Assembly: GCA_016841325.1 (NCBI GenBank)
Contig: JAENZJ010000002.1
Coordinates: 62,001 to 126,000, forward strand
Length of the DNA: 64,000 nucleotides
Source: Thermincola carboxydiphila
GTDB taxonomy: Bacteria > Bacillota > Thermincolia > Thermincolales > UBA2595
Direction: 5' to 3'
The notes beneath the pieces were generated by a model that was not told where the DNA came from, made no database searches, and was given only the letters and a program-made list of their open reading frames with translations. Numbering within the stretch: the first letter of the stretch is position 1; every line of letters begins with the position of its first letter. Both the position numbers and the translations under genes were made by a program. Below, piece by piece: positions 42,718 to 55,121 of the stretch.

Positions 42718-42756
42718 CGTCAGTGCGGAAAATCGATATAACACCTCGCCATCTTA
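42718..42756 (-). repeat. Dispersed structured repeat, partial copy (right arm)
   Basis: Read on the minus strand, the bases after the cobT stop are GATGGCGAGGTGTTATATCG and then ATTTTCCGCACTGACGAC. These match the arm sequences of the repeat at 52093-52357 and 4060-4090, in the same position (directly after a stop codon). Confidence 0.6.
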
Positions 42757-43794
42757 CATTCCAATATCCTTAAAAGTCCCCACTTCATGAAGCATTTTGA
42801 TTGATGCATCAAGAACCGACATGGCCAGAGCGGCGCCTGTGCCTTCACCCAGTCTCATTTTCATATCCAGCATTGGCCTCAATCCGATGCATTCAAGCAT
42901 AGTCCGGTGGGCCTGCTCTGCGGAACAGTGTGATGGGATCATAAAGTCCACTGATTTGGGAGCCAGCCTGGCGGCAATCAGGGCACCGGCACTGGAGATG
43001 AAACCGTCAACAACCACCGGAATTCTGTTAGCTGCTGCTGCCAGTATGGTTCCGGCTATTCCTCCGATTTCCAGGCCGCCCACTTTTGCCAGGACATCTA
43101 CAGGGTCATTCTTGTCCGGGTTGTTTAATTCAATAGCTCTCCTGATTACCGCAGCTTTATTGGAAAGGGCCTTATCATCAACACCGGTGCCCCGTCCGGT
43201 AACTTCTTCAGGGGTGAAATCTCCCAGGACAGAAAGTATGGCGCTGCTGGGGGTGGTATTTCCTATTCCCATGTCACCGGTACCCAGGACACGGGCTCCT
43301 TTGCTGATTTCATTATTAGCTGTCTCAATTCCGGTTTCGATAGCCTTGACAGCCTCTTCCCGGGACATTGCCGGGCCTTTGAGCATATTATCGGTCCCGA
43401 ATTTTATCTTCCGGTTAATGACACCGGGGTGGTCCACAGGTCCGGCCACACCTATGTCAACAGGGACAATCTCGGCCCCGACGTGTCTGCCAAGTACACA
43501 GATACTGGCAATTCCGTCAGCAAAGGTAGGCATCATGGCGATAGTGACCATTGGCGGAAATGCGCTGACTCCTTCCTGGACCACACCATGGTCTGCCCCC
43601 ATTACGATAATCACTTTTTTCCCTGCTTTGGGCATAGGGTCTCTGTAGATTCCACTTAGCTGGAGGACCATTTCTTCCAGAACTCCCAGGCTCCCGGGAG
43701 GCTTAATCAGATTGTTCAGCCTTTCCTGGGTCTGTTCCATACTGGTGCGGTCCAGGTCCCCAATCTGTTGTACCGTTTTTTCGAGTAAACTCAT
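42754..43794 (-). CDS. cobT: Nicotinate-nucleotide-dimethylbenzimidazole phosphoribosyltransferase
   Basis: CobT activates the lower ligand base for cobalamin assembly. The chain has the CobT layout: LIKPPGSLGVLEEMVLQLSGI at the start, MGADHGVVQEGVSAFP, and GTGDMGIGNTTPSSAILS near residue 180, plus the C-terminal RLGEGTGAALAM. The start is set at the ATG at 43794 (AAAGGAGG upstream). Length is 346 aa. A B12 riboswitch and terminator lie directly upstream. Confidence 0.95.
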   Translation of the reverse strand: MSLLEKTVQQIGDLDRTSMEQTQERLNNLIKPPGSLGVLEEMVLQLSGIYRDPMPKAGKKVIIVMGADHGVVQEGVSAFPPMVTIAMMPTFADGIASICVLGRHVGAEIVPVDIGVAGPVDHPGVINRKIKFGTDNMLKGPAMSREEAVKAIETGIETANNEISKGARVLGTGDMGIGNTTPSSAILSVLGDFTPEEVTGRGTGVDDKALSNKAAVIRRAIELNNPDKNDPVDVLAKVGGLEIGGIAGTILAAAANRIPVVVDGFISSAGALIAARLAPKSVDFMIPSHCSAEQAHRTMLECIGLRPMLDMKMRLGEGTGAALAMSVLDASIKMLHEVGTFKDIGM

Positions 43795-43830
43795 TTTTGT
43801 TTCCTCCTTTATTTGTTTTAAGTCGAAAAA

Positions 43831-43865
43831 TAAAAAGTCCACAGCTTATAAAGCTGTGAACTTTA
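43831..43865 (-). terminator. Riboswitch-linked terminator before cobT
   Basis: On the minus strand AAAGTTCACAGCT (43864-43852) pairs with AGCTGTGGACTTT (43846-43834), followed by TTATTTTT. It lies between the riboswitch and cobT and is a likely expression platform. Confidence 0.75.
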
Positions 43866-43910
43866 CCATCATTCACAAGTATCTGCATTATTCCGCGAAA
43901 TGCAGTAATT

Positions 43911-44083
43911 TGACGGTTATGGCAGGTCTCCTGGCTCGTGGTCATCACATGCGCTTCACCTTCCCCGGAAAAAAACCGAGTGGTTTTATTTGAAGGCATG
44001 CTAACACTTACAGTGGCGGGACCGCTTGGGACTTGCACCCAATTCCCTATTCTCCTCAACAGAGGCACCGATAACCTGTAATG
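43911..44083 (-). ncRNA. Cobalamin riboswitch
   Basis: On the minus strand the leader holds GGTGCCTC, a GGGAA box, GGTGCAAGTCCC, the near-universal GCCACTGTAA (B12 box), AGTGTTAGCATGCC, and a closing GAGCCAGGAGACCTGCC. All are in the cobalamin riboswitch order, and the outer arms (ATCGGTTAT-like ends) can close the helix. It should turn off cobT when adenosylcobalamin is high. Confidence 0.93.
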
Positions 44084-44296
44084 TTTTTTTATATTATTTA
44101 TTATAAAAGAGTTTAACCTATTTTTCAACAAGTAAATTTCCACCTGTACTCACAGACCCTGGCCCAAAGAAATGTTTTTTGGGAAATGGGCAGGAGAAGG
44201 AAAGTACCCTTTTTCTGTTGAAATTATAAAGGAAAGCCTGAATCAATACGGTGCCATTTGCGGCAGGGCATTCAGAAAAAGTAAGGAGGACACCCT

Positions 44297-47200
44297 TTGT
44301 ACCTAAAGAGAATTGAGGTCCAGGGCTTTAAATCCCTGGCTGACAAAATAGAACTCCAGTTTACCCCGGGCATTACTGCAGTTGTGGGGCCAAACGGGAG
44401 TGGGAAAAGCAATATCGCCGATGCTGTCAGGTGGGTGCTGGGTGAACAGAGTGCCAAGACACTCAGGGGAGCCAGGATGGAAGACGTAATTTTTTCCGGC
44501 AGTGACCGGAGGAAGTCAGTCGGAATGGCTGAGGTTTCCCTGACCCTTGATAACAGCACCTCCATATTTCCCCTGGATTATTCTGAAATAACGGTCACCA
44601 GAAGGGTTTACCGTTCCGGTGAAAGCGAATTTCTGATTAACAAATCTCCCTGCAGGCTGAGGGATATCCATGAACTTTTTATGGATACCGGTATCGGCAG
44701 GGAAGGGTATTCCATTATCGGACAGGGTAAGATTGACGAGATCCTGAGTACCCGGTCGGAAGACCGCCGGGCTATTGTTGAGGAGGCTGCCGGTATTGTA
44801 AAATACAAGAGCCGTAAGCAGCAGGCAGTCAAAAAGCTGACTGACACAGAACAGAACCTGGTCCGCATCAGTGACATTATATCAGAACTGGAGACCCAGG
44901 TCGGTCCTCTTGAGGAGCAGTCCCAAAAAGCCAGGGAATACCTTGAATACAGGAATGAGCTTGTCGAACTGGAAATTAATCTGTTAATTAACCAGATTGA
45001 GGACCAGAAACAGAGGCTGGATGAGATCAATACCCAGGATGAGGACCTGAAACAGAAGGTACTTGAACTGGAAACCGGGCTGAGAAACCGCGAATCCGAA
45101 ATTGAGGAGCACAAACTCCTAAACAGTAAGCTTGATGAAGAAATTGCCGTACTACAGAAGGAACTGTACGACACCGGCAGCCTGATAGAAAAAAAAGAGG
45201 CCGAAATAATGGTGGCCCGCCAGAGACTGCAGGATATGGAAAACAGGAAAGAGAGCCTTATAGGTGAAATAGAGGAACTGAAGAGCAGAGAAGAGGCTGA
45301 GCGCACCAGGCATGCCGGCGATTCCCGGTCCCTCAGGGAACTCAGGGACAAGCAGGAGACTACGGAGAAAAAACTGCGGCAGGCTGAGAATAAATTATCA
45401 GAGCTGGAGAAGGAGCTTGAGGCAGAACAGCAGAGAATCGAAGAAAAAAAATCAGATATGATAGATTTATTAAATGAGACTGCCGGAGTGAGCAATGCAA
45501 TCAATTCCGGTGAAATTGAGGTCAAAAACCTGGAGCGCCGGATAAAAGACCTGGAACAGCAGGGAGATACCCTGCAGCACGAATTCAGCCTGATTGCGGA
45601 GGGGGAGAAAGAACTAGAATCTGGACTGGCTGCAGCCAGAGAAGCAATTGCCGGTCTTGAAAATGAAAATGCCGGTTTCAATGAGAGGAAGACCATTCTG
45701 TCAGGTCAGCTGAAAAAACTGGCCGGGGAACTGGAATGCGACCGTGAGCTGTTAGCGCAAAAGTCATCCCGCCTGAAGGCCCTGGAAGACCTGCAGCATG
45801 ATTATGAGGGGTATTTCAGGGGTGTCCGGGAAGTATTGGTAGCAGCCAAAAACGGCAGGGATTGTTCCGGCATTTGCGGTGTGGTTGCCGAGCTTATTAA
45901 AGTACCTGAGAAGTACGAGACTGCTGTTGAGGTTGCCCTAGGCAGTGCTGTCCAGCATATTGTTACCGAAACAGATGATGATGCCAGAAAGGCTATCGAA
46001 TTCCTGAAAAAAAACAGATTTGGCAGGGCTACTTTTCTGCCCCTGAATACCATAAAACCTTATCAGGAGAAGCAAAAGCGGCAAATCTCTTCCGGCAACG
46101 GGGTATTTGGCTGTGCTTCCAGCCTGGTGGAAGCTGATGCCAGGTATTCACATATTGTTGACTATCTATTGGGCCGGGTTATCATTGTTGATGATATAAG
46201 GATGGCAGCAAAGGTTGCCGGGGAAACCGGATACAGTATGAAAATAGTAACTCTTGACGGTGATGTCGTCAATCCGGGGGGCTCAATGACGGGAGGGTCC
46301 TACAAAAAAGGAAGCTCCAATCTCCTGGGACGGAACAGGGAGATTGCCGAAACAAGGGAGCAGCGTGACAACCTGAAGACCGGAGTTGCCCAACTGGAGA
46401 AACAGATTGCTGTTTTGCGGGAAGAATACGATGAGTGTGGATGTCGCATTGTAGAAAACGAAACCCGGCTTCAGGAACTTTGGTTAGAAAAGACATCTCT
46501 GGACAAGGACCTGGAGAATTTAAAAAAAGACAAGGCCAGGGCCGAAAGCATGGATAACCTGGTAAAGGATGAAAAGACCAATCTGGTCAATGAATTAAAC
46601 AATGTCCGGAACAGTCTTGGTGAACTGCAATCGCGTCTTCAGGAACTGCGGGCAAAAGACGGCGCCACCAGAAAAGAAATCGAGGCCATGCAAAAACACC
46701 TGAAGAGCAGGGAGGAACAACGGAGCCAAATTTCCCGGGAGGTAACTGAAATCAAAGTTGAACTGGCCGGACTGCAGCAGGAAGAACTCAACTATGCCCA
46801 GATTATGGACAGGGTCAGAGATGCTATCAGGGATATTGAGGCTCAGATCCGGCGTAAGCAGGAACAGATCAGAGAGTTTGACTCCCTGAAGGGACAGCTG
46901 CAGCAGGAAATTACCGGCCACCTGGAGGCAGTTGAGGAGTTAAGCAGGCGCCGGGGTGAAGGAGAAGAACTGCTCAATGAACGCAAAAACGAGAAGCAGT
47001 CTGTTATGGCCCATATTATGGGAAAAGAGGCTGTTGTCAAAAAACTGGCCCGGGAGGCAGGAGTTGTAAGGGAACAGCTCCATGCTTCTGATGTAAAAAG
47101 GGCCAGGCTGGAGTATGAAATTGAAAACTCCCTGGCCAAACTGGGAGAAGAATTTGAGATTACTTACGAAGAGGCACTGCTCAAAAAAACCGAAATTCAG

Positions 47201-47869
47201 AATAAAAGAGAGGTAACTTCCCGGATAAAAAACATCAGGGAAGCGATTGCGGCCCTGGGAAGTGTCAACCTTGGCGCGATAGAGGAGTATGAAAGGGTCA
47301 GGGAACGGTTCGAATTCCTTACCAAACAGTATGCTGACATGGAACAGGCCAAAGAATCACTGTATAAGGTTATTGCGGAAATGGACCAGATAATGACCGG
47401 AAAATTCGGTACAGCATATCAGGAAATTAACCGGAATTTTGGCCTGGTATTTGCCCGGCTTTTTGGCGGAGGCAGGGCCGAACTGGTGTTAACCGACAGT
47501 GATAATATCCTGGAAACGGGGATCGACATTGTAGCCCAACCGCCCGGGAAGAAACCCCAGCACCTTTCCCTGCTGTCAGGGGGAGAGCGGGCGCTGACAG
47601 CGATATCACTGTTATTTGCTATCCTGAAAACCAAACCCAGCCCGTTTTGTGTGCTTGACGAGATTGAGGCATCCCTCGATGAAGCCAATGTTGACCGGTT
47701 TGCCGCATACCTGAAAGAATTTGCAGCCAATACCCAGTTCATTGTGATTACACACCGCAAGGGCACCATGGAGGCCGCGGACATTATTTATGGCGTGACC
47801 ATGGATGATGCCCGGGTTTCCAAACTGGTTTCCATGAAACTGGGTGATGAAATAGATAAGGTGAGCTGA
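44297..47869 (+). CDS. smc: Chromosome segregation protein SMC
   Basis: SMC compacts and separates the chromosome with ScpA and ScpB. The ATP-binding head has Walker A GPNGSGKSN near residue 32, two long coiled coils (residues about 170-500 and 680-1020), a hinge around residues 515-650 with conserved Gly residues, and the C-terminal signature LSGGERALTA and Walker B FCVLDEIEASLD. Length is 1190 aa. It starts with TTG at 44297 after AAGGAGGA. Confidence 0.97.
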   Translation: MYLKRIEVQGFKSLADKIELQFTPGITAVVGPNGSGKSNIADAVRWVLGEQSAKTLRGARMEDVIFSGSDRRKSVGMAEVSLTLDNSTSIFPLDYSEITVTRRVYRSGESEFLINKSPCRLRDIHELFMDTGIGREGYSIIGQGKIDEILSTRSEDRRAIVEEAAGIVKYKSRKQQAVKKLTDTEQNLVRISDIISELETQVGPLEEQSQKAREYLEYRNELVELEINLLINQIEDQKQRLDEINTQDEDLKQKVLELETGLRNRESEIEEHKLLNSKLDEEIAVLQKELYDTGSLIEKKEAEIMVARQRLQDMENRKESLIGEIEELKSREEAERTRHAGDSRSLRELRDKQETTEKKLRQAENKLSELEKELEAEQQRIEEKKSDMIDLLNETAGVSNAINSGEIEVKNLERRIKDLEQQGDTLQHEFSLIAEGEKELESGLAAAREAIAGLENENAGFNERKTILSGQLKKLAGELECDRELLAQKSSRLKALEDLQHDYEGYFRGVREVLVAAKNGRDCSGICGVVAELIKVPEKYETAVEVALGSAVQHIVTETDDDARKAIEFLKKNRFGRATFLPLNTIKPYQEKQKRQISSGNGVFGCASSLVEADARYSHIVDYLLGRVIIVDDIRMAAKVAGETGYSMKIVTLDGDVVNPGGSMTGGSYKKGSSNLLGRNREIAETREQRDNLKTGVAQLEKQIAVLREEYDECGCRIVENETRLQELWLEKTSLDKDLENLKKDKARAESMDNLVKDEKTNLVNELNNVRNSLGELQSRLQELRAKDGATRKEIEAMQKHLKSREEQRSQISREVTEIKVELAGLQQEELNYAQIMDRVRDAIRDIEAQIRRKQEQIREFDSLKGQLQQEITGHLEAVEELSRRRGEGEELLNERKNEKQSVMAHIMGKEAVVKKLAREAGVVREQLHASDVKRARLEYEIENSLAKLGEEFEITYEEALLKKTEIQNKREVTSRIKNIREAIAALGSVNLGAIEEYERVRERFEFLTKQYADMEQAKESLYKVIAEMDQIMTGKFGTAYQEINRNFGLVFARLFGGGRAELVLTDSDNILETGIDIVAQPPGKKPQHLSLLSGGERALTAISLLFAILKTKPSPFCVLDEIEASLDEANVDRFAAYLKEFAANTQFIVITHRKGTMEAADIIYGVTMDDARVSKLVSMKLGDEIDKVS

Positions 47870-47981: not shown

Positions 47982-49121
47982 ATGACAGAGGTTAAAGGTA
48001 TTGCCGGATATATTGTAAACAAGATGGTTAATATCACCAGGGAGATCAGCCAGGGGAGAAATGCAGGATGTTTCGGTTTTGTCAATGACCGGGGTATGGT
48101 AGACCGGATAACACCGGTCGCCGCAGGCGGGATCAGCGGGATACCCATCAGAAAACTCCTGGGACATATTACTGATATGAATGGCAAGAGCGTGATTGAA
48201 GGCCTTGAAGCCATCCCGGATAATGCGGTCTTTATTTCTACCAGGCCCGGTAAAACAGGGCTAATCACAGATGTAACCGCTGCTGATTTCTTCAACATGC
48301 CAGTTATTGCCATCGGGGTAAAGCATGGCCAACTGGCCGGAGTAGGAATCTTATTTCCCACCGGGGAGCACTTTGATATGGCCACTGAGTCGGAAAAAAC
48401 AGACCTCAGGATATTGGCTGCAAGGACTACTGATGAAGAAAAAGAGGTCTTGCGGGAAACAACGGAACTGAGCCTGAAATACCTGGAGATTTCTGCAAAG
48501 CTTGAGGTGGCAGAATTGCCCGAAAAACCGCCTTATTCTCCGGAACATTCCAAAGAGTGGAAACTGCCGCAGCATATAGTAAATTCGATTTCCAGGGAAT
48601 TTGCCGAAAAGCTTGTTGCCAGGTCTGTTGAAGCAGGCCAGGGCAGGGAAGTTGCTGCTATGGGGAACATAAATGAGGATGGGCACATTACACAGGACGG
48701 GGAAATGGTAGTCGGGGGAATAGGATATGTCCCGTCACGCCTGTTAGCTTCCAGTTGTGTTGATATTTCAGGGAAATCACTCCGGGAGATATATGCCGGC
48801 AAGGTGTCCCGGGATGCGGTAATTGTGCATACACACCCCGGAGGGACCGGGGTCATGCATATGGGAGATGCTACTGCCGGGCCAGGCTCATGGGGGCGCC
48901 CCATTGTCGCCATCGGGCATGATTCTGCCGGTAAGGTGCGCGGCGCTACGGTAATAGAAGCTGTCACAGATGTTTACCGGCTTGCTGATGAAGATGAAGA
49001 TCTGGGGCAGAAGTTTTTTGAAGCTGCTACCCCGCAGGAAGAGGCAGAAATCCGCAACCGTAAATTCGGCGTGGCCCAGAAGTATACGAATTTATGCAAA
49101 CCGATTGAGATACGGGTATGA
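47982..49121 (+). CDS. Duplicated JAMM/MPN-like protein between smc and ftsY
   Basis: A 379-residue protein that seems to hold two copies of one domain. The C-terminal half (about residues 225-345) carries HTHPGGTGVMHMGDATAG, which looks like a JAMM metal site (HxHP then an Asp), and ends with PIVAIGH. The N-terminal half (about residues 20-130) aligns to it: GFVNDRG with GNINEDG, and NAVFISTRPGKTG with DAVIVHTHPGGTG. It has lost the two His (STRP). This fits an active domain plus a degenerate copy. I recall similar proteins near smc called peptidase S7; I cannot verify this. Function unknown. The start lies after CGGGGGAAT. Confidence 0.65.
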   Translation: MTEVKGIAGYIVNKMVNITREISQGRNAGCFGFVNDRGMVDRITPVAAGGISGIPIRKLLGHITDMNGKSVIEGLEAIPDNAVFISTRPGKTGLITDVTAADFFNMPVIAIGVKHGQLAGVGILFPTGEHFDMATESEKTDLRILAARTTDEEKEVLRETTELSLKYLEISAKLEVAELPEKPPYSPEHSKEWKLPQHIVNSISREFAEKLVARSVEAGQGREVAAMGNINEDGHITQDGEMVVGGIGYVPSRLLASSCVDISGKSLREIYAGKVSRDAVIVHTHPGGTGVMHMGDATAGPGSWGRPIVAIGHDSAGKVRGATVIEAVTDVYRLADEDEDLGQKFFEAATPQEEAEIRNRKFGVAQKYTNLCKPIEIRV

Positions 49122-49228
49122 TTATGTTACAATATTTGGGTTAGGTGAAAACCTGGCCCGATTTTTGATTATGAAGAGAATATCAGTGAGAGCAAACAGC
49201 AACTATATCGGCAGGGGGAGAAAATCAA

Positions 49229-50140
49229 ATGGGACTGTTCTCAAAGCTTAAAGAAGGCCTCACTAAAACAAGGCAGGGGTTTGTTGCCAAAATTGAAACC
49301 CTTGTCAGTGGTGGTAAAAAAATTGATGAAGAGTTGTATGAAGAAATTGAAGAACTGCTGATTCAGGCAGATGTGGGAGTCAATACTGCCATTGAACTGG
49401 TAGAGGATCTCAGGAAAATTGTTAAGGAACGTAAAGTCGATGATGCGGTAGAGTTAAAAAACATATTAAAAGAACTGATTGCTGATTTAATGGGTGAGGA
49501 ACAGGCAGGTTTAAACCTCAGTGGTAAACCTGCGGTTATTGTGGTGGTGGGAGTTAATGGAGTGGGAAAAACGACTACCATCGGAAAACTGGCCCATAAT
49601 TTCCGGGAACAGGGTCGTAAGGTGCTCCTGGCTGCCGGGGACACATTCCGGGCTGCTGCCATTGACCAGCTACAGATATGGGCCGGCAGGGTCGGGTGTG
49701 ATATCATCAAACACAGTGAAGGCGCTGACACGGCTGCTGTGGTCTATGATGCCATCCAGGCCGCCAAAGCCAGGGATGTGGATATCCTTATCGTTGATAC
49801 GGCAGGAAGGCTGCATACCAAGGCCAACCTGATGGAGGAACTGAAAAAGCTGTTCCGGGTGATATCCCGGGAACTGCCCGACTCTCCTGATGAGGTCCTG
49901 CTTGTCCTGGACGCTACCACAGGGCAGAACGCCATTAGTCAGGCCAAGATTTTTGGAGAGGCATCCGGAGTAACCGGAATTGTCCTCACCAAACTGGATG
50001 GAACAGCCAAAGGCGGGGTAGTAATTGGAATAAAGTCTGAATTAAACATTCCGGTAAAGTATATCGGTGTGGGAGAAAAAGTCGATGACCTCAGGGAATT
50101 TGACCCAAGGGAATTTGTCGAAGCCTTGTTTGATGATTAA
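49229..50140 (+). CDS. ftsY: Signal recognition particle receptor FtsY
   Basis: FtsY is the SRP receptor GTPase at the membrane. An N-terminal helical N domain (residues about 1-85) is followed by the G domain: GVNGVGKTTTIGKLA (G1), DTFRAAAIDQL, DTAGR, and TKLDGTAKGG, then KYIGVGEKVDDL. Length is 303 aa, without the acidic A domain seen in E. coli. GGGGGAG precedes the ATG. Confidence 0.97.
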   Translation: MGLFSKLKEGLTKTRQGFVAKIETLVSGGKKIDEELYEEIEELLIQADVGVNTAIELVEDLRKIVKERKVDDAVELKNILKELIADLMGEEQAGLNLSGKPAVIVVVGVNGVGKTTTIGKLAHNFREQGRKVLLAAGDTFRAAAIDQLQIWAGRVGCDIIKHSEGADTAAVVYDAIQAAKARDVDILIVDTAGRLHTKANLMEELKKLFRVISRELPDSPDEVLLVLDATTGQNAISQAKIFGEASGVTGIVLTKLDGTAKGGVVIGIKSELNIPVKYIGVGEKVDDLREFDPREFVEALFDD

Positions 50141-50186
50141 AATACCGGTATGTTTGTTGATCTGATTACTGACGGGGGTATATGTG

Positions 50187-50987
50187 ATGCTGAAAATTGG
50201 GATTATTGGAGGGACCGGAGTTTATGACCCGGAAATACTTGACGGTGTTTCGGAGGAGAATGTTACTACTGATTACGGTAATGTAAGGGTAATGGTCGGG
50301 GAATACAAAGGGGTTAGTGTGGCTTTTCTTCCCAGACACGGGGCAGGTCATGCCGTTCCGCCGCATAAGGTGAACTACAGGGGGAACATTATTGCCCTTA
50401 AGAAGCTGGGTGTGGAGCGTGTGGTGGCCACCGGTGCAGTGGGTTCCCTCAACCTGGAAATGGTACCGGGTGAGATTGTCCTGGTGGACCAGTTTATTGA
50501 CTTTACAAAAAACAGGGTCCAGACCTTTTATGATACTCCCGGTAACGGAGTAGTACATATTGACATGACTGAACCTTACTGCAGTGACTTGAGAAGAGTG
50601 GTAGCGGCCGCAGCTGAAGCGGTGGATGTTCCGGTAAAGGGGAAAGGTACCTATGTCTGCACAGAGGGGCCGCGGTTTGAGACACCGGCTGAGATAAAAA
50701 TGTACAGTTCCCTTGGGGGGGACCTGGTGGGGATGACCAGTGTCCCGGAAGTTGTACTCGCCAGAGAAGCTGAAATTTGCTACTGCACAGTTGCCATGGT
50801 GACCAATTTTGGCGCCGGGATATCGCCAAATCCCCTGACCCATGCTGAAGTCTTGGAAGCAATGGAAAAAAATAATGCCAACCTGAAAAAACTGATTATG
50901 AAAACAATCGAGACCATGCCCGGTGCAAGAGGCTGCCGGTGCAGGCACTCCCTTGCCGAACTGGGCTCCCTGGGACAGGGAAAATAA
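50187..50987 (+). CDS. mtnP: S-methyl-5'-thioadenosine phosphorylase
   Basis: The enzyme splits methylthioadenosine into adenine and methylthioribose-1-phosphate. It has GIIGGTGVYD, FLPRHGAGH, GAVGSLNLEMVPGEIV and TEGPRFETPAEIKMY, the MTAP/PNP type-II motifs, and ends with a CRCRH tail. The start could be the GTG at 50184 or the ATG at 50187 (GGGGGT upstream). Length is about 266 aa. mtnA follows, so these are consecutive steps. Confidence 0.9.
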   Translation: MLKIGIIGGTGVYDPEILDGVSEENVTTDYGNVRVMVGEYKGVSVAFLPRHGAGHAVPPHKVNYRGNIIALKKLGVERVVATGAVGSLNLEMVPGEIVLVDQFIDFTKNRVQTFYDTPGNGVVHIDMTEPYCSDLRRVVAAAAEAVDVPVKGKGTYVCTEGPRFETPAEIKMYSSLGGDLVGMTSVPEVVLAREAEICYCTVAMVTNFGAGISPNPLTHAEVLEAMEKNNANLKKLIMKTIETMPGARGCRCRHSLAELGSLGQGK

Positions 50988-51056
50988 GCTGATTTATAAA
51001 TAATTAAATCAGATAAGCAAATTCAGGTGAATATTTAATGAAAACGGGTGTAGGCA

Positions 51057-52100
51057 ATGAAGACAATGGAATGGTGTGATGACAGACTTCTGCTGCTTGA
51101 CCAGACCCGGCTTCCCCTTGAGGTAAGCTATATCAGCTGCAGCACTGCTGAAGAAGTAGCTGAGGCCATAAAAACAATGAAGGTAAGGGGTGCGCCTGCC
51201 ATCGGGGCAGCAGCCGCTTACGGTCTGGCACTGGGTGCACTCCGCTCCCAAAGCAGTGACCGGAAAACCTTTTTAAGTGAAATTGAGGCTGCCGCCAGGA
51301 TACTGGGGGCTACCAGACCGACTGCGGTTAACTTGTTTTGGGCCCTGGAACGGATGAAGGGTGTATTCCGGGATGCGGGTGAAGCGGGTGTCCCTGAACT
51401 GAAACAACAGCTTCTGGAAGAGGCCCGCCTGATTCTGCAGGAAGATATTAAAATGAACCAAAGGATGGGTAAGTTTGGCAGTCAGCTTGTGCCTGAGGGT
51501 GCCAGGATTCTTACCCACTGTAATGCCGGGGCCCTGGCCACCGGAGGATATGGTACCGCCCTTGGTGTTATCAGGGCTGCTCACGAATCTGGCAAGGAAA
51601 TACAGGTTTTTGCCGATGAGACCCGGCCCCTGCTACAGGGGGCCAGGCTGACTGCCTGGGAGCTGCAGCAGGACAATATCCCGGTAACCCTGATTACAGA
51701 TAATATGGCCGGTTACCTGATGAAAAAGGGTATGATTGACCTGGCTGTAGTGGGTGCTGACCGGATCACAGCCAATGGGGATGTGGCCAATAAAATTGGC
51801 ACCTATACGGTTGCGGTGCTGTGCCGGGAACACGGGATCCCATTTTATGTTGCCGCCCCTTTTTCGACAATTGATATGAACCTGGAAAAGGGTGATGACA
51901 TAACCATAGAAGAGAGGGAGGGATCTGAGGTGACTACAGTTTTCGGACAGCAAATAGCGCCTCAGGGCATCAGGGTACTTAACCCGGCCTTTGATGTCAC
52001 CCCCAATCACCTGGTTACGGCAATAATTACCGACCGGGGTGTCCTCAGACCGCCATATAAGGATAGTCTCCAAAAAATATTTATAGACTCCGGGAAATGA
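51057..52100 (+). CDS. mtnA: Methylthioribose-1-phosphate isomerase
   Basis: MtnA isomerises methylthioribose-1-phosphate to the ribulose form, step two of methionine salvage. The chain has VRGAPAIGAAAAYGLALG, the catalytic Cys in LTHCNAGALATGGYGTALGV and the catalytic Asp in VGADRITANGDVANKIGTY. Length is 347 aa. The last codons (AAA TGA) lie inside the start of the dispersed repeat copy B. No other downstream salvage genes are seen here. Confidence 0.95.
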   Translation: MKTMEWCDDRLLLLDQTRLPLEVSYISCSTAEEVAEAIKTMKVRGAPAIGAAAAYGLALGALRSQSSDRKTFLSEIEAAARILGATRPTAVNLFWALERMKGVFRDAGEAGVPELKQQLLEEARLILQEDIKMNQRMGKFGSQLVPEGARILTHCNAGALATGGYGTALGVIRAAHESGKEIQVFADETRPLLQGARLTAWELQQDNIPVTLITDNMAGYLMKKGMIDLAVVGADRITANGDVANKIGTYTVAVLCREHGIPFYVAAPFSTIDMNLEKGDDITIEEREGSEVTTVFGQQIAPQGIRVLNPAFDVTPNHLVTAIITDRGVLRPPYKDSLQKIFIDSGK

Positions 52101-52450
52101 ACGTGGGCTATATGGTGAGCTATTATACTGATTTTCAACACTGACGATGGAGAAATCTAACCTTGTTCCTGGCGAAGTCACGGATAAACCGCCAATTCGC
52201 CATCCGTACCCGCAAGGGGCAGGCCGGACCCGTAAGCCGTTAAAGCGGCAACGGCTCCGCACTGGCTCCGGTCCGTGACTTCGCTTAGGGGAACCGCGGT
52301 AATGTTTTCTCACAGCGTCGGTGCAAGGAAAATCTTGTACAACACCTCACCATATGCCACGGCCATCTCCGAAGCCTGCTGTGGAGGAAAAAAACAAAAA
52401 GTCCAAGGTGCAAAGCCGTGAACATAAGGGAAATTCTATTTCCGAGAGAC
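52093..52450 (+). repeat. Dispersed structured repeat, full copy B
   Basis: The left arm (52093-52145) and the right arm (52314-52370) are imperfect inverse complements over about 55 bases. Between them 52165-52181 (CGAAGTCACGGA) and 52269-52283 (TCCGTGACTTCG) make an inner stem. The right flank (52366-52450) matches copy A from 4101. It fills the mtnA-ahcY gap and ends near the ahcY ribosome binding site. No open frame was found in it. Confidence 0.75.
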
Positions 52451-52478
52451 TTAATATTTACATGAGGAGGTTTACATA

Positions 52479-53732
52479 ATGGATTATATTGTAAGAGATA
52501 TTAACCTTGCTCCTTCAGGCAAACTCAAGATTGACTGGGTAAAGGAACACATGCCTGTACTCAACGAGATTCGTGAAGAATTTGAAAAGACCCAGGTATT
52601 TAAAGGGTTAAAAATAGCTGTAAGCATACACCTCGAAGCCAAGACTGCCTACCTTGCCAAAGTGTTAAAGGCCGGAGGTGCCGATGTGGCGATTTCAGGG
52701 AGCAACCCACTCTCCACCCAGGATGATGTGGCTGCTGCCCTGGCTGTAGAAGGTATCAGGGTATATTCATGGTACAATGCCACTGCAGAGGAATACAGGG
52801 AACACCTGATTAAGGTGCTGGAAACCAGGCCTGATATAGTCATTGACGATGGCGGCGACCTGGTAAATCTTCTGCACAATGAATGCAGGGAACTGTCCTC
52901 CCAGGTTATCGGGGGGTGTGAGGAAACTACCACAGGGGTACTCCGCCTGGAGGCTATGGAAAAGGCCGGGATTTTGAAATTCCCGATGATGGCTGTCAAT
53001 GATGCCCTCTGCAAATATCTTTTTGATAACCGGTACGGTACCGGTGAGTCAGTATGGACCGGGATTATGCGGACCACCAACCTGATTGTGGCCGGGAAAA
53101 CGGTAGTTGTTGCCGGGTATGGCTGGTGCGGCAAAGGTATCGCCATGAAGGCCAGGGGATTGGGTGCCAAGGTGATTATAACTGAAATTGATCCTATCAA
53201 AGCCATTGAGGCCCATATGGACGGTTTCACAACTATGAGCATGGATGACGCCGCCGCCCTGGGTGATGTTTTCATTACCGTTACCGGATGTAAGGATGTC
53301 ATCAGGGGGAAACACTATCTAAAAATGAAGCATGGCGCCCTGCTGGCAAATGCCGGACATTTTGATGTTGAAATTAACAAGCCTGAATTAAATGAGGCTG
53401 CCAAAGAAGTGCGCACAGTAAGGCACAACATAGAGGAATTCCTGATGCCTGATGGCCGAAAACTGTATCTCCTGGCAGAAGGAAGGCTGGTTAATCTGGC
53501 TGCAGGAGACGGCCACCCGGCTGAAATAATGGATATGTCATTTGCTCTTCAGGCATTGTCAGCCAAATATATGCTGGAAAACGGCAAGGGTCTGGATAAC
53601 AGGGTGTATAAGGTTGCTGAAGAGATAGATAAGCGGGTTGCTGAAATTAAGCTTAAGTCCCTGGGGACTACCATAGACAGGCTGACCCCGGAACAGGAAC
53701 AGTACCTCTATGGATGGGAGCACGGTGAATAA
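52479..53732 (+). CDS. ahcY: Adenosylhomocysteinase
   Basis: AhcY cleaves S-adenosylhomocysteine to adenosine and homocysteine with bound NAD. The chain has VAISGSNPLSTQDD, NDALCKYLFDNRYGTGES, and the NAD site GYGWCGKGIAMKARGLGA, then GHFDVEI. Length is 417 aa. ATGAGGAGG precedes the ATG. It is followed by a hairpin repeat and then mtaD. It fits an SAM-recycling cluster with mtnP, mtnA and mtaD. Confidence 0.96.
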   Translation: MDYIVRDINLAPSGKLKIDWVKEHMPVLNEIREEFEKTQVFKGLKIAVSIHLEAKTAYLAKVLKAGGADVAISGSNPLSTQDDVAAALAVEGIRVYSWYNATAEEYREHLIKVLETRPDIVIDDGGDLVNLLHNECRELSSQVIGGCEETTTGVLRLEAMEKAGILKFPMMAVNDALCKYLFDNRYGTGESVWTGIMRTTNLIVAGKTVVVAGYGWCGKGIAMKARGLGAKVIITEIDPIKAIEAHMDGFTTMSMDDAAALGDVFITVTGCKDVIRGKHYLKMKHGALLANAGHFDVEINKPELNEAAKEVRTVRHNIEEFLMPDGRKLYLLAEGRLVNLAAGDGHPAEIMDMSFALQALSAKYMLENGKGLDNRVYKVAEEIDKRVAEIKLKSLGTTIDRLTPEQEQYLYGWEHGE

Positions 53733-53748
53733 AGGCAATGAACAATAA

Positions 53749-53795
53749 GCTCCCGGAAATGACCGGTCATTCCGGGAGCCTGCAGTTAATGAACA
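53749..53795 (+). repeat. Dispersed structured repeat, minimal copy C (hairpin)
   Basis: GCTCCCGGAAATGACC (53749-53764) pairs with GGTCATTCCGGGAGC (53765-53779) apart from one bulge, followed by CTGC. The arms GGAAATGACC and GTCATTCCGGGAGCCTGC match the outer stem of copy A, without its interior. Confidence 0.6.
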
Positions 53796-53813
53796 TGTTA
53801 GGAGGGACGCGTT

Positions 53814-55121
53814 ATGAGCAGGCTCAAGATAACAAATGCCGTTATTATCCCAATGACTGAGGAAAACCTGATTATTAACGGTGGAGAAATTCATATTGAA
53901 AACGGTACAATTGTCTTTGCCGGAAGTTCCGGGGAAGCGCCGCAACACTGGGTGGCTGACGAGACTGTTGATGCCGGTGGTATGGTAGCCATGCCTGGTT
54001 TTGTAAACTGTCATACCCATGCCGCAATGACACTGTTAAGGAGTTACGCTGATGACCTACCCCTGATGGAGTGGCTGGAACAGCGGATCTGGCCCCTGGA
54101 GGACCGGCTGACAGGTGAGGACGTATATTGGGGAAGCATGCTTTGTATTCTGGAATTACTCAAGTCAGGGACCACCTGTTTTGCTGATATGTACTTCTTT
54201 ATGGATGATGTTGCCCGTGCCGTGGCCCAAAGCGGTATCAGGGCCAGCCTCTCCAGGGGCATGGTAGGGGTAGCCCCGACCGCGCCAACTGCCCTGGTGG
54301 AGACAGAGCAGTTTATTGAAAAGTGGAACGGGGCGGCAGAGGGCAGGATCACGACAATGGTAGGACCTCATGCCCCATATACATGTCCTCCCGATTACCT
54401 GAAAAAGGTGCTGGCCATTGCAGAGAAACATAAAATCGGCGTACATATCCACCTGGCAGAAACACGGGTAGAGTTTGATGACATCAAAAAGCAATACGGG
54501 ATGACCCCCACAGAGTATTTAAATGACTGTGGAGTGCTGGACTTCAGCGTTTTGGCAGCCCACTGTGTCCACCTTACCGAAAGTGACATCAGAATACTTA
54601 AGGAAAAGAGCACAGGTGTGGCCCACAACCCTGAAAGCAACATGAAACTTGCCAGCGGAATTGCCCCGGTGTCAGAGATGCTGGCCCGCGGGATTAATGT
54701 CGGTATTGGTACTGACGGGGCGGCCAGCAACAACAACCTTGACATGCTGGAAGAAATGCGCTCAGCCGCACTCCTGCAAAAGGTAAGTACGGGAGACCCT
54801 ACCGCAATTCCCTCTTATAAGGCCCTGGAAATGGCCACTGCAAACGGAGGCAGGGTCCTGGGGCTGGAAGTGGGAATGCTGTGCCAGGGTTATAAGGCTG
54901 ATATCATCCTGATTGATTTTGAAAAACCTCACCTCTATCCCAAACATGACCTGATAGCACATACTGTATATGCAGCCCAGTCATCTGATGTGGATACAGT
55001 TATAGTTGATGGCACCATAGTTATGCGGAACAGGAAACTCCTTACCATTGATGAACAGGAAATACTGGAAAATGTCCAGAGGTGTGCCAGGAGGATGGTG
55101 GGGGAGAAAAGTATTTCGTAA
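53814..55121 (+). CDS. mtaD: 5-methylthioadenosine/S-adenosylhomocysteine deaminase
   Basis: An amidohydrolase that deaminates MTA and SAH to the inosyl compounds. It has the zinc HTHAAMTLLR, HIHLAET, the His in AAHCVHL, and the Asp in GTDGAASNNNLDM. Length is 435 aa. TAGGAGGG precedes the ATG. It sits next to ahcY and near mtnP, so MTA and SAH can be handled in two ways here: phosphorolysis/hydrolysis or deamination. Confidence 0.95.
   Translation: MSRLKITNAVIIPMTEENLIINGGEIHIENGTIVFAGSSGEAPQHWVADETVDAGGMVAMPGFVNCHTHAAMTLLRSYADDLPLMEWLEQRIWPLEDRLTGEDVYWGSMLCILELLKSGTTCFADMYFFMDDVARAVAQSGIRASLSRGMVGVAPTAPTALVETEQFIEKWNGAAEGRITTMVGPHAPYTCPPDYLKKVLAIAEKHKIGVHIHLAETRVEFDDIKKQYGMTPTEYLNDCGVLDFSVLAAHCVHLTESDIRILKEKSTGVAHNPESNMKLASGIAPVSEMLARGINVGIGTDGAASNNNLDMLEEMRSAALLQKVSTGDPTAIPSYKALEMATANGGRVLGLEVGMLCQGYKADIILIDFEKPHLYPKHDLIAHTVYAAQSSDVDTVIVDGTIVMRNRKLLTIDEQEILENVQRCARRMVGEKSIS

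Follow-up and report, generated by a model that had tools for sequence, protein, structure and literature searches.

A predicted fused tandem MPN protein with a variant JAMM-type site, encoded between smc and ftsY in anaerobic Bacillota

The smc-ftsY locus and an internal duplication

The window analysed here is a 64,000-nucleotide stretch of DNA from Thermincola carboxydiphila. An initial annotation of this DNA had proposed a duplicated JAMM/MPN-like protein between smc and ftsY, and an open reading frame of 379 codons indeed lies there, extending exactly from 47982 to 49121 on the forward strand and encoding 379 amino acids. This reading frame, which we refer to as gene X, is separated from smc by 112 bp and from ftsY by 107 bp.

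44297 to 47869, forward strand: smc, upstream neighbour of X
47982 to 49121, forward strand: whole gene X, predicted fused tandem MPN protein (35-sequence alignment; AlphaFold2 pLDDT 94.6, pTM 0.90)
47982 to 48515, forward strand: N-terminal half (residues 1-178), pseudo-enzyme half, predicted MPN fold that lacks the metal ligands
48549 to 49118, forward strand: C-terminal half (residues 190-379), predicted MPN fold whose JAMM metal site is nearly complete (AlphaFold2, VIA-align)
49229 to 50140, forward strand: ftsY (SRP receptor), downstream neighbour and more constant partner of X

Around the X/ftsY junction, we observed a promoter-like site (49105-49133, forward strand) and a terminator-like hairpin with a T tail (49136-49161, forward strand), and ftsY may have its own promoter; since the scan gave no excess of terminators over shuffled sequences, both signals may be due to chance. 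On the opposite strand, a cobalamin riboswitch (43904-44088, reverse strand; Rfam RF00174, 116 bits) immediately precedes a cobT-like gene (42754-43842, reverse strand) that adjoins smc. Downstream of ftsY, the region 50184-55121 (forward strand) carries genes like those for methionine salvage and SAH recycling, presumably resembling mtnP, mtnA, ahcY, and mtaD, and in many Bacillota, X carriers and non-carriers alike, parts of this block are again found beside ftsY.

Comparing residues 1-178 of X with residues 190-379 revealed 28% identity over 178 columns (BLASTP, E 2e-18) in an alignment that spans the full length of both halves. Profile-profile comparison of the halves gave a probability of 99.9 and a score of 196.8, while 100 column-shuffled controls reached at most 25.6. 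The two halves, previously matched by eye, are homologous, and X is a real internal duplication. Positions conserved to at least 90% in both halves include Q24/Q220, G25/G221, R26/R222, G49/G245, G50/G246, P55/P251, R57/R253, T87/T284, P89/P286, G90/G287, T92/T289, G93/G290, and E138/E339. These common residues are the family's own signature, beyond any metal site.

Searches of Pfam, NCBIfam, PHROGs, PADLOC, and PDB sequences with X and 35 homologues returned nothing above chance. None of the 35 family members matched RadC (PF04002) at E ≤ 1, and the same holds for Prok-JAB (PF14464) and JAB (PF01398) at this threshold. Compared with RadC, the X profile scored 25.4, where the highest of 100 shuffles reached 21.7; for Prok-JAB, the score was 18.5 and the highest shuffle 18.4. 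As sequence evidence, these scores are too weak to prove homology. Matches to usher, DARPin, and alcohol-dehydrogenase entries were dismissed as chance, as was a weak KH_2 match that two members from Halanaerobiales gave with E-values of 8e-4 and 2e-3, short of the curated cut-off, and that spans residues of about 57-103 inside the MPN-like N half. In the open-access literature, we found neither a described smc-ftsY intergenic family nor a tandem MPN protein in bacteria, and it is possible that the family was described earlier under another name.

Predicted fold and metal site

In the AlphaFold2 model of full-length X (pTM 0.90), a helical hairpin closes each half; the C half modelled alone reached a pLDDT of 91.3. 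Comparison of the full model with the PDB returned MPN proteins in 50 of the 50 matches listed, with Foldseek and likewise with VIA-align, and the Foldseek matches include Csn5, PfJAMM1, Rpn11/Rpn8, BRCC36, AMSH, Npl4, and AfJAMM. Foldseek E-values for X lay at about 2e-3 to 4e-3, with a best E of 3.3e-3 and probabilities of up to 0.99 for the X model. In VIA-align, the C half aligned to AfJAMM with a Z of 7.5 (rmsd 3.7 over 105 residues, full model). When modelled alone, it matched AMSH (Z 8.8, rmsd 3.7 over 143) and PfJAMM1 (Z 8.8, rmsd 2.9 over 121), and 50 of the 50 matches listed were MPN proteins (Z 7.5-8.8). Foldseek also gave MPN proteins as top matches of the isolated C half, with Rpn8-Rpn11 and BRCC36-KIAA0157 chains first among the matches listed. 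The N half (model residues 1-189) aligned to the Prp8 JAB domain (Z 6.8, rmsd 4.7 over 152), AMSH (Z 6.6), and PfJAMM1 (Z 6.5, rmsd 2.6 over 117), with VIA Z of 6.3-6.8 overall for these three. MPN domains of Prp8 and eIF3 are among the top structural matches of X; eIF3h, Prp8, and Npl4 all carry such domains.

Taken one by one, Z-scores of up to 8.8 are graded as middling by the tool; what carries the MPN assignment is that the matches are uniformly of one kind, in combination with the motif described below. On these grounds, the models support membership of the C half in the MPN/JAMM fold superfamily, and an MPN fold of the N half is supported by its Z-scores of 6.3-6.8 and its homology to the C half, in agreement with the proposal that both halves resemble MPN/JAMM structures. 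The middling Z-scores, the missing sequence-profile connection to JAMM families, and the superposition of AfJAMM itself on cytidine deaminase (PMC300881) would all be expected if the likeness were a general alpha/beta resemblance, for example to a cytidine-deaminase-like fold, and X were an enzyme of another class. We consider this very improbable, as the matches listed are nearly exclusively MPN for both halves, E, HxHP, and D sit at JAMM positions and spacing, and the X alignment contains no deaminase motifs (HAE/CAE ... PCxxC).

The putative metal site of the C half comprises the following residues, each invariant in 46/46 distinct homologues:

48648 to 48650, forward strand: E223, putative general acid-base Glu, preceding DSSP strand 224-230
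48828 to 48839, forward strand: H283-T284-H285-P286, putative metal-binding HxHP, DSSP strand 279-286
48858 to 48860, forward strand: H293, His at the position of the JAMM catalytic Ser
48867 to 48869, forward strand: D296, putative third metal ligand, DSSP helix 294-304

These homologues reach down to 47% identity, and the conservation of the His-x-His and Asp that the initial annotation had named as a check is thus complete, as is that of the Glu, while the counterpart positions of the N half vary. HTHP (283-286), D296, E223 (within REVAAMG), and STRP of the N half (86-89) were all located as claimed. In the model, helix 1 is followed by a strand with the Glu directly ahead of it, HxHP closes another strand, and the Asp lies where a helix begins, so that the ligand residues are predicted to occupy the topological places of JAMM ligands. 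A metal site formed by E223, H283, H285, and D296 would most likely hold zinc.

The JAMM motif has been defined as EXnHS/THX7SXXD, in which His and Asp bind zinc, Glu serves in acid-base catalysis, and the second Ser stabilises the intermediate (PMC300881). The C half reads E223 ... H283-T284-H285, seven residues (P286-M292), H293, two residues, and D296, which lies 11 residues after H285. The earlier view that the distance from HTHP to the Asp is not the classic one therefore had to be abandoned: H283-T-H285-X7-H293-X2-D296 fits the published motif, with Ser replaced by His. X lacks the catalytic Ser expected three positions ahead of the Asp and has His293 there in 46/46 homologues, whereas RadC and Prok-JAB proteins from Bacillota carry Ser at the equivalent position. 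Because this position holds an invariant His, we class X as a variant rather than a canonical JAMM protein. Mutation of the catalytic Ser to Ala abolishes Csn5 activity, and its hydroxyl is located where His231 acts in thermolysin (PMC300881); for the latter reason, H293 may act like thermolysin His231.

The replacement of the catalytic Ser in every homologue is also what one would expect if X bound metal but were no longer a peptidase. Both halves would then be scaffolds of the kind seen in Prp8 or eIF3f/h, with a conserved site devoted to structure, metal sensing, or RNA or protein binding near the SRP receptor. The Prp8 and eIF3 MPN domains among the top structural matches point in the same direction, as do the many non-ligand residues that the two halves have kept in common (QGR, GG, P-x-R, TxPGxTG). 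In contrast, E223, both His, and the Asp are kept without exception, although MPN-minus proteins normally lose several ligands, as the N half of X has, and we regard a purely scaffolding role as possible but rather unlikely.

The corresponding segments of the N half are:

48051 to 48062, forward strand: Q24-G25-R26-N27, counterpart of QGR-E223
48237 to 48260, forward strand: S86-T87-R88-P89-G90-K91-T92-G93, counterpart of HTHPGGTG

The Glu position (27) is occupied by N, S, P, G, A, T, or Q, with E in one distinct homologue. Both His are lost, position 86 being S, T, M, V, I, or F and position 88 R, N, S, K, D, or I; within this counterpart of HTHP, only the middle Thr (T87) is invariant. The Asp is likewise absent at the +11 distance. 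One half without metal ligands beside an intact C half, as first suspected, is therefore what the alignment contains. In a divergent homologue (L042/L142, genome G027), the N half reads QGREVA, with the Glu kept and the His ligands not. Judged from its sequence, this Glu fits descent from an active copy, and the protein is possibly an intermediate in the decay of the N half.

Distribution and gene order

X is a single-copy, all-or-nothing gene present in 32 of the 199 genomes sampled from the phylum, and a larger sample of 398 genomes gave 40 strong matches, with three more at noise level; these homologue counts cover Bacillota genomes. The carriers are a group of anaerobic Bacillota, and the closest relatives among named genomes are Thermincola MAGs. 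An exact peptide-pattern scan of genome contigs gave matches in Bacillota only, and no relative of X was found in viral contigs, phages, or plasmids. Presence of Spo0A does not separate the carriers (30/32 with X versus 174/199 overall).

The order smc-X-ftsY is kept from Thermincola to Halanaerobiales and was seen in all loci examined except Carboxydocella, and the synteny suggested for X homologues is thus conserved across a wide range of Bacillota. In Carboxydocella thermautotrophica (L034, 937-5941), tatC, selA, selB, and a lysR-type regulator gene (names read from translations) precede X-ftsY, and smc lies elsewhere. In genomes without X, smc stands directly before ftsY in about 14 of 19 loci. 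Given this proportion and the Carboxydocella arrangement, we view X as occupying a slot in an old smc-ftsY pair and travelling with ftsY. In one X-less locus (L118, 594-1500, oriented to ftsY), smc and ftsY are separated by about 900 bp that hold no convincing gene, and tblastn found no X remnant in this gap.

Distance matrices of X and FtsY correlate with an r of 0.75, a value reached by 0 of 2000 permutations, and the slope puts the divergence of X at 1.16 times that of FtsY. What this demonstrates is vertical inheritance under strong constraint rather than an interaction, and the correlation is in part the shared ancestry expected of any vertically inherited gene.

Neighbouring genes, taken by themselves, are a weak guide to function, and the position beside ftsY might be no more than inherited operon order. 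X would then be a JAMM hydrolase unrelated to SRP, whose substrates might be small molecules or proteins of the sulfur-carrier or ubiquitin-like kind, or which might assist Smc in maintaining the chromosome. Other bacterial JAMM proteins do act on sulfur-carrier or ubiquitin-like proteins, and X adjoins smc in nearly all genomes. In Carboxydocella, however, it is ftsY and not smc that X accompanies, and no ubiquitin-like or E1 gene was found among the neighbours of X, a result that counts weakly because only window genes served as queries. We hold such an SRP-independent role to be rather improbable.

Proposed function and comparison with known systems

Our preferred reading, held with moderate confidence, is that X is a fused MPN-minus/MPN-plus metalloprotein and probably an SRP-receptor-linked metal-dependent peptidase, with metal and activity putative. 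X would be a soluble protein whose single chain forms a pseudo-dimer of MPN domains, in which the predicted JAMM-type site of the C half would hold zinc and activate water for hydrolysis of a peptide or isopeptide bond. H293 could take the oxyanion-stabilising role of the usual Ser, in the manner of thermolysin His231. Having arisen by duplication, the N half would since have shed its metal ligands and now most likely act as a scaffold or help to bind substrate, a role comparable to that of Rpn8 beside Rpn11. X may work with the SRP receptor or in co-translational targeting, for example by trimming or clearing protein at the targeting complex; we infer this link from its fixed place beside ftsY, its staying with ftsY where smc lies elsewhere, and a divergence near that of FtsY. 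Against our preferred reading stand the absent catalytic Ser, the insecure profile link to JAMM families, and the middling structural scores.

In its most far-reaching form, X would represent an undescribed bacterial metalloprotease family of fused inactive and active MPN domains, with a thermolysin-like His in the JAMM site, dedicated to the SRP receptor or co-translational targeting in much of the anaerobic Bacillota and paralleling the proteasome-lid pairing; we consider it unlikely that this holds in full. Conserved almost like FtsY, X suggests an overlooked step of protein targeting or proteolysis in anaerobic Bacillota, and it makes it possible to ask, in a naturally occurring protein, if the catalytic Ser of JAMM enzymes can be exchanged for His.

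Among known systems, Rpn8-Rpn11 of the proteasome lid, as well as CSN6-CSN5 and KIAA0157-BRCC36, share with X the combination of an inactive and an active MPN domain, each followed by helices, and X shows this MPN-minus/MPN-plus combination in the sequences of its ligand-less N half and intact C half. While pairs of the Rpn8-Rpn11 type are eukaryotic, consist of two chains, reside in large complexes, and act on ubiquitin-family substrates, X is bacterial, consists of one chain, has no known ubiquitin-like partner, and carries His for the catalytic Ser. According to PMC6043591, the Rpn8-Rpn11 organisation was not known in archaea. The archaeal AfJAMM and PfJAMM1 resemble X in MPN fold, E/HxH/D site, and X7 spacing (VIA Z 7.5-8.8); in contrast to X, they are single-domain proteins with the canonical Ser, and their sequence identity to X is negligible (7-14% of the residues aligned). 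RadC (PF04002) and Prok-JAB (PF14464) are bacterial JAMM-fold proteins with HxHPx7SxxD that occur in X-bearing genomes. X is matched by neither model and differs from both in its fused pseudo-half, the His instead of Ser, and its own conserved motifs QGR, GGxGxxPxR, PGGTG, and WGRP. Thermolysin provides a mechanistic analogy as a Glu/His/His/acid zinc peptidase with a His near the oxyanion, but its different fold and HEXXH motif make this an analogy and not homology. Pairing of active and inactive MPN domains is known from eukaryotic complexes, and what is new in X is the bacterial fused form with a variant motif, outside Pfam and NCBIfam.
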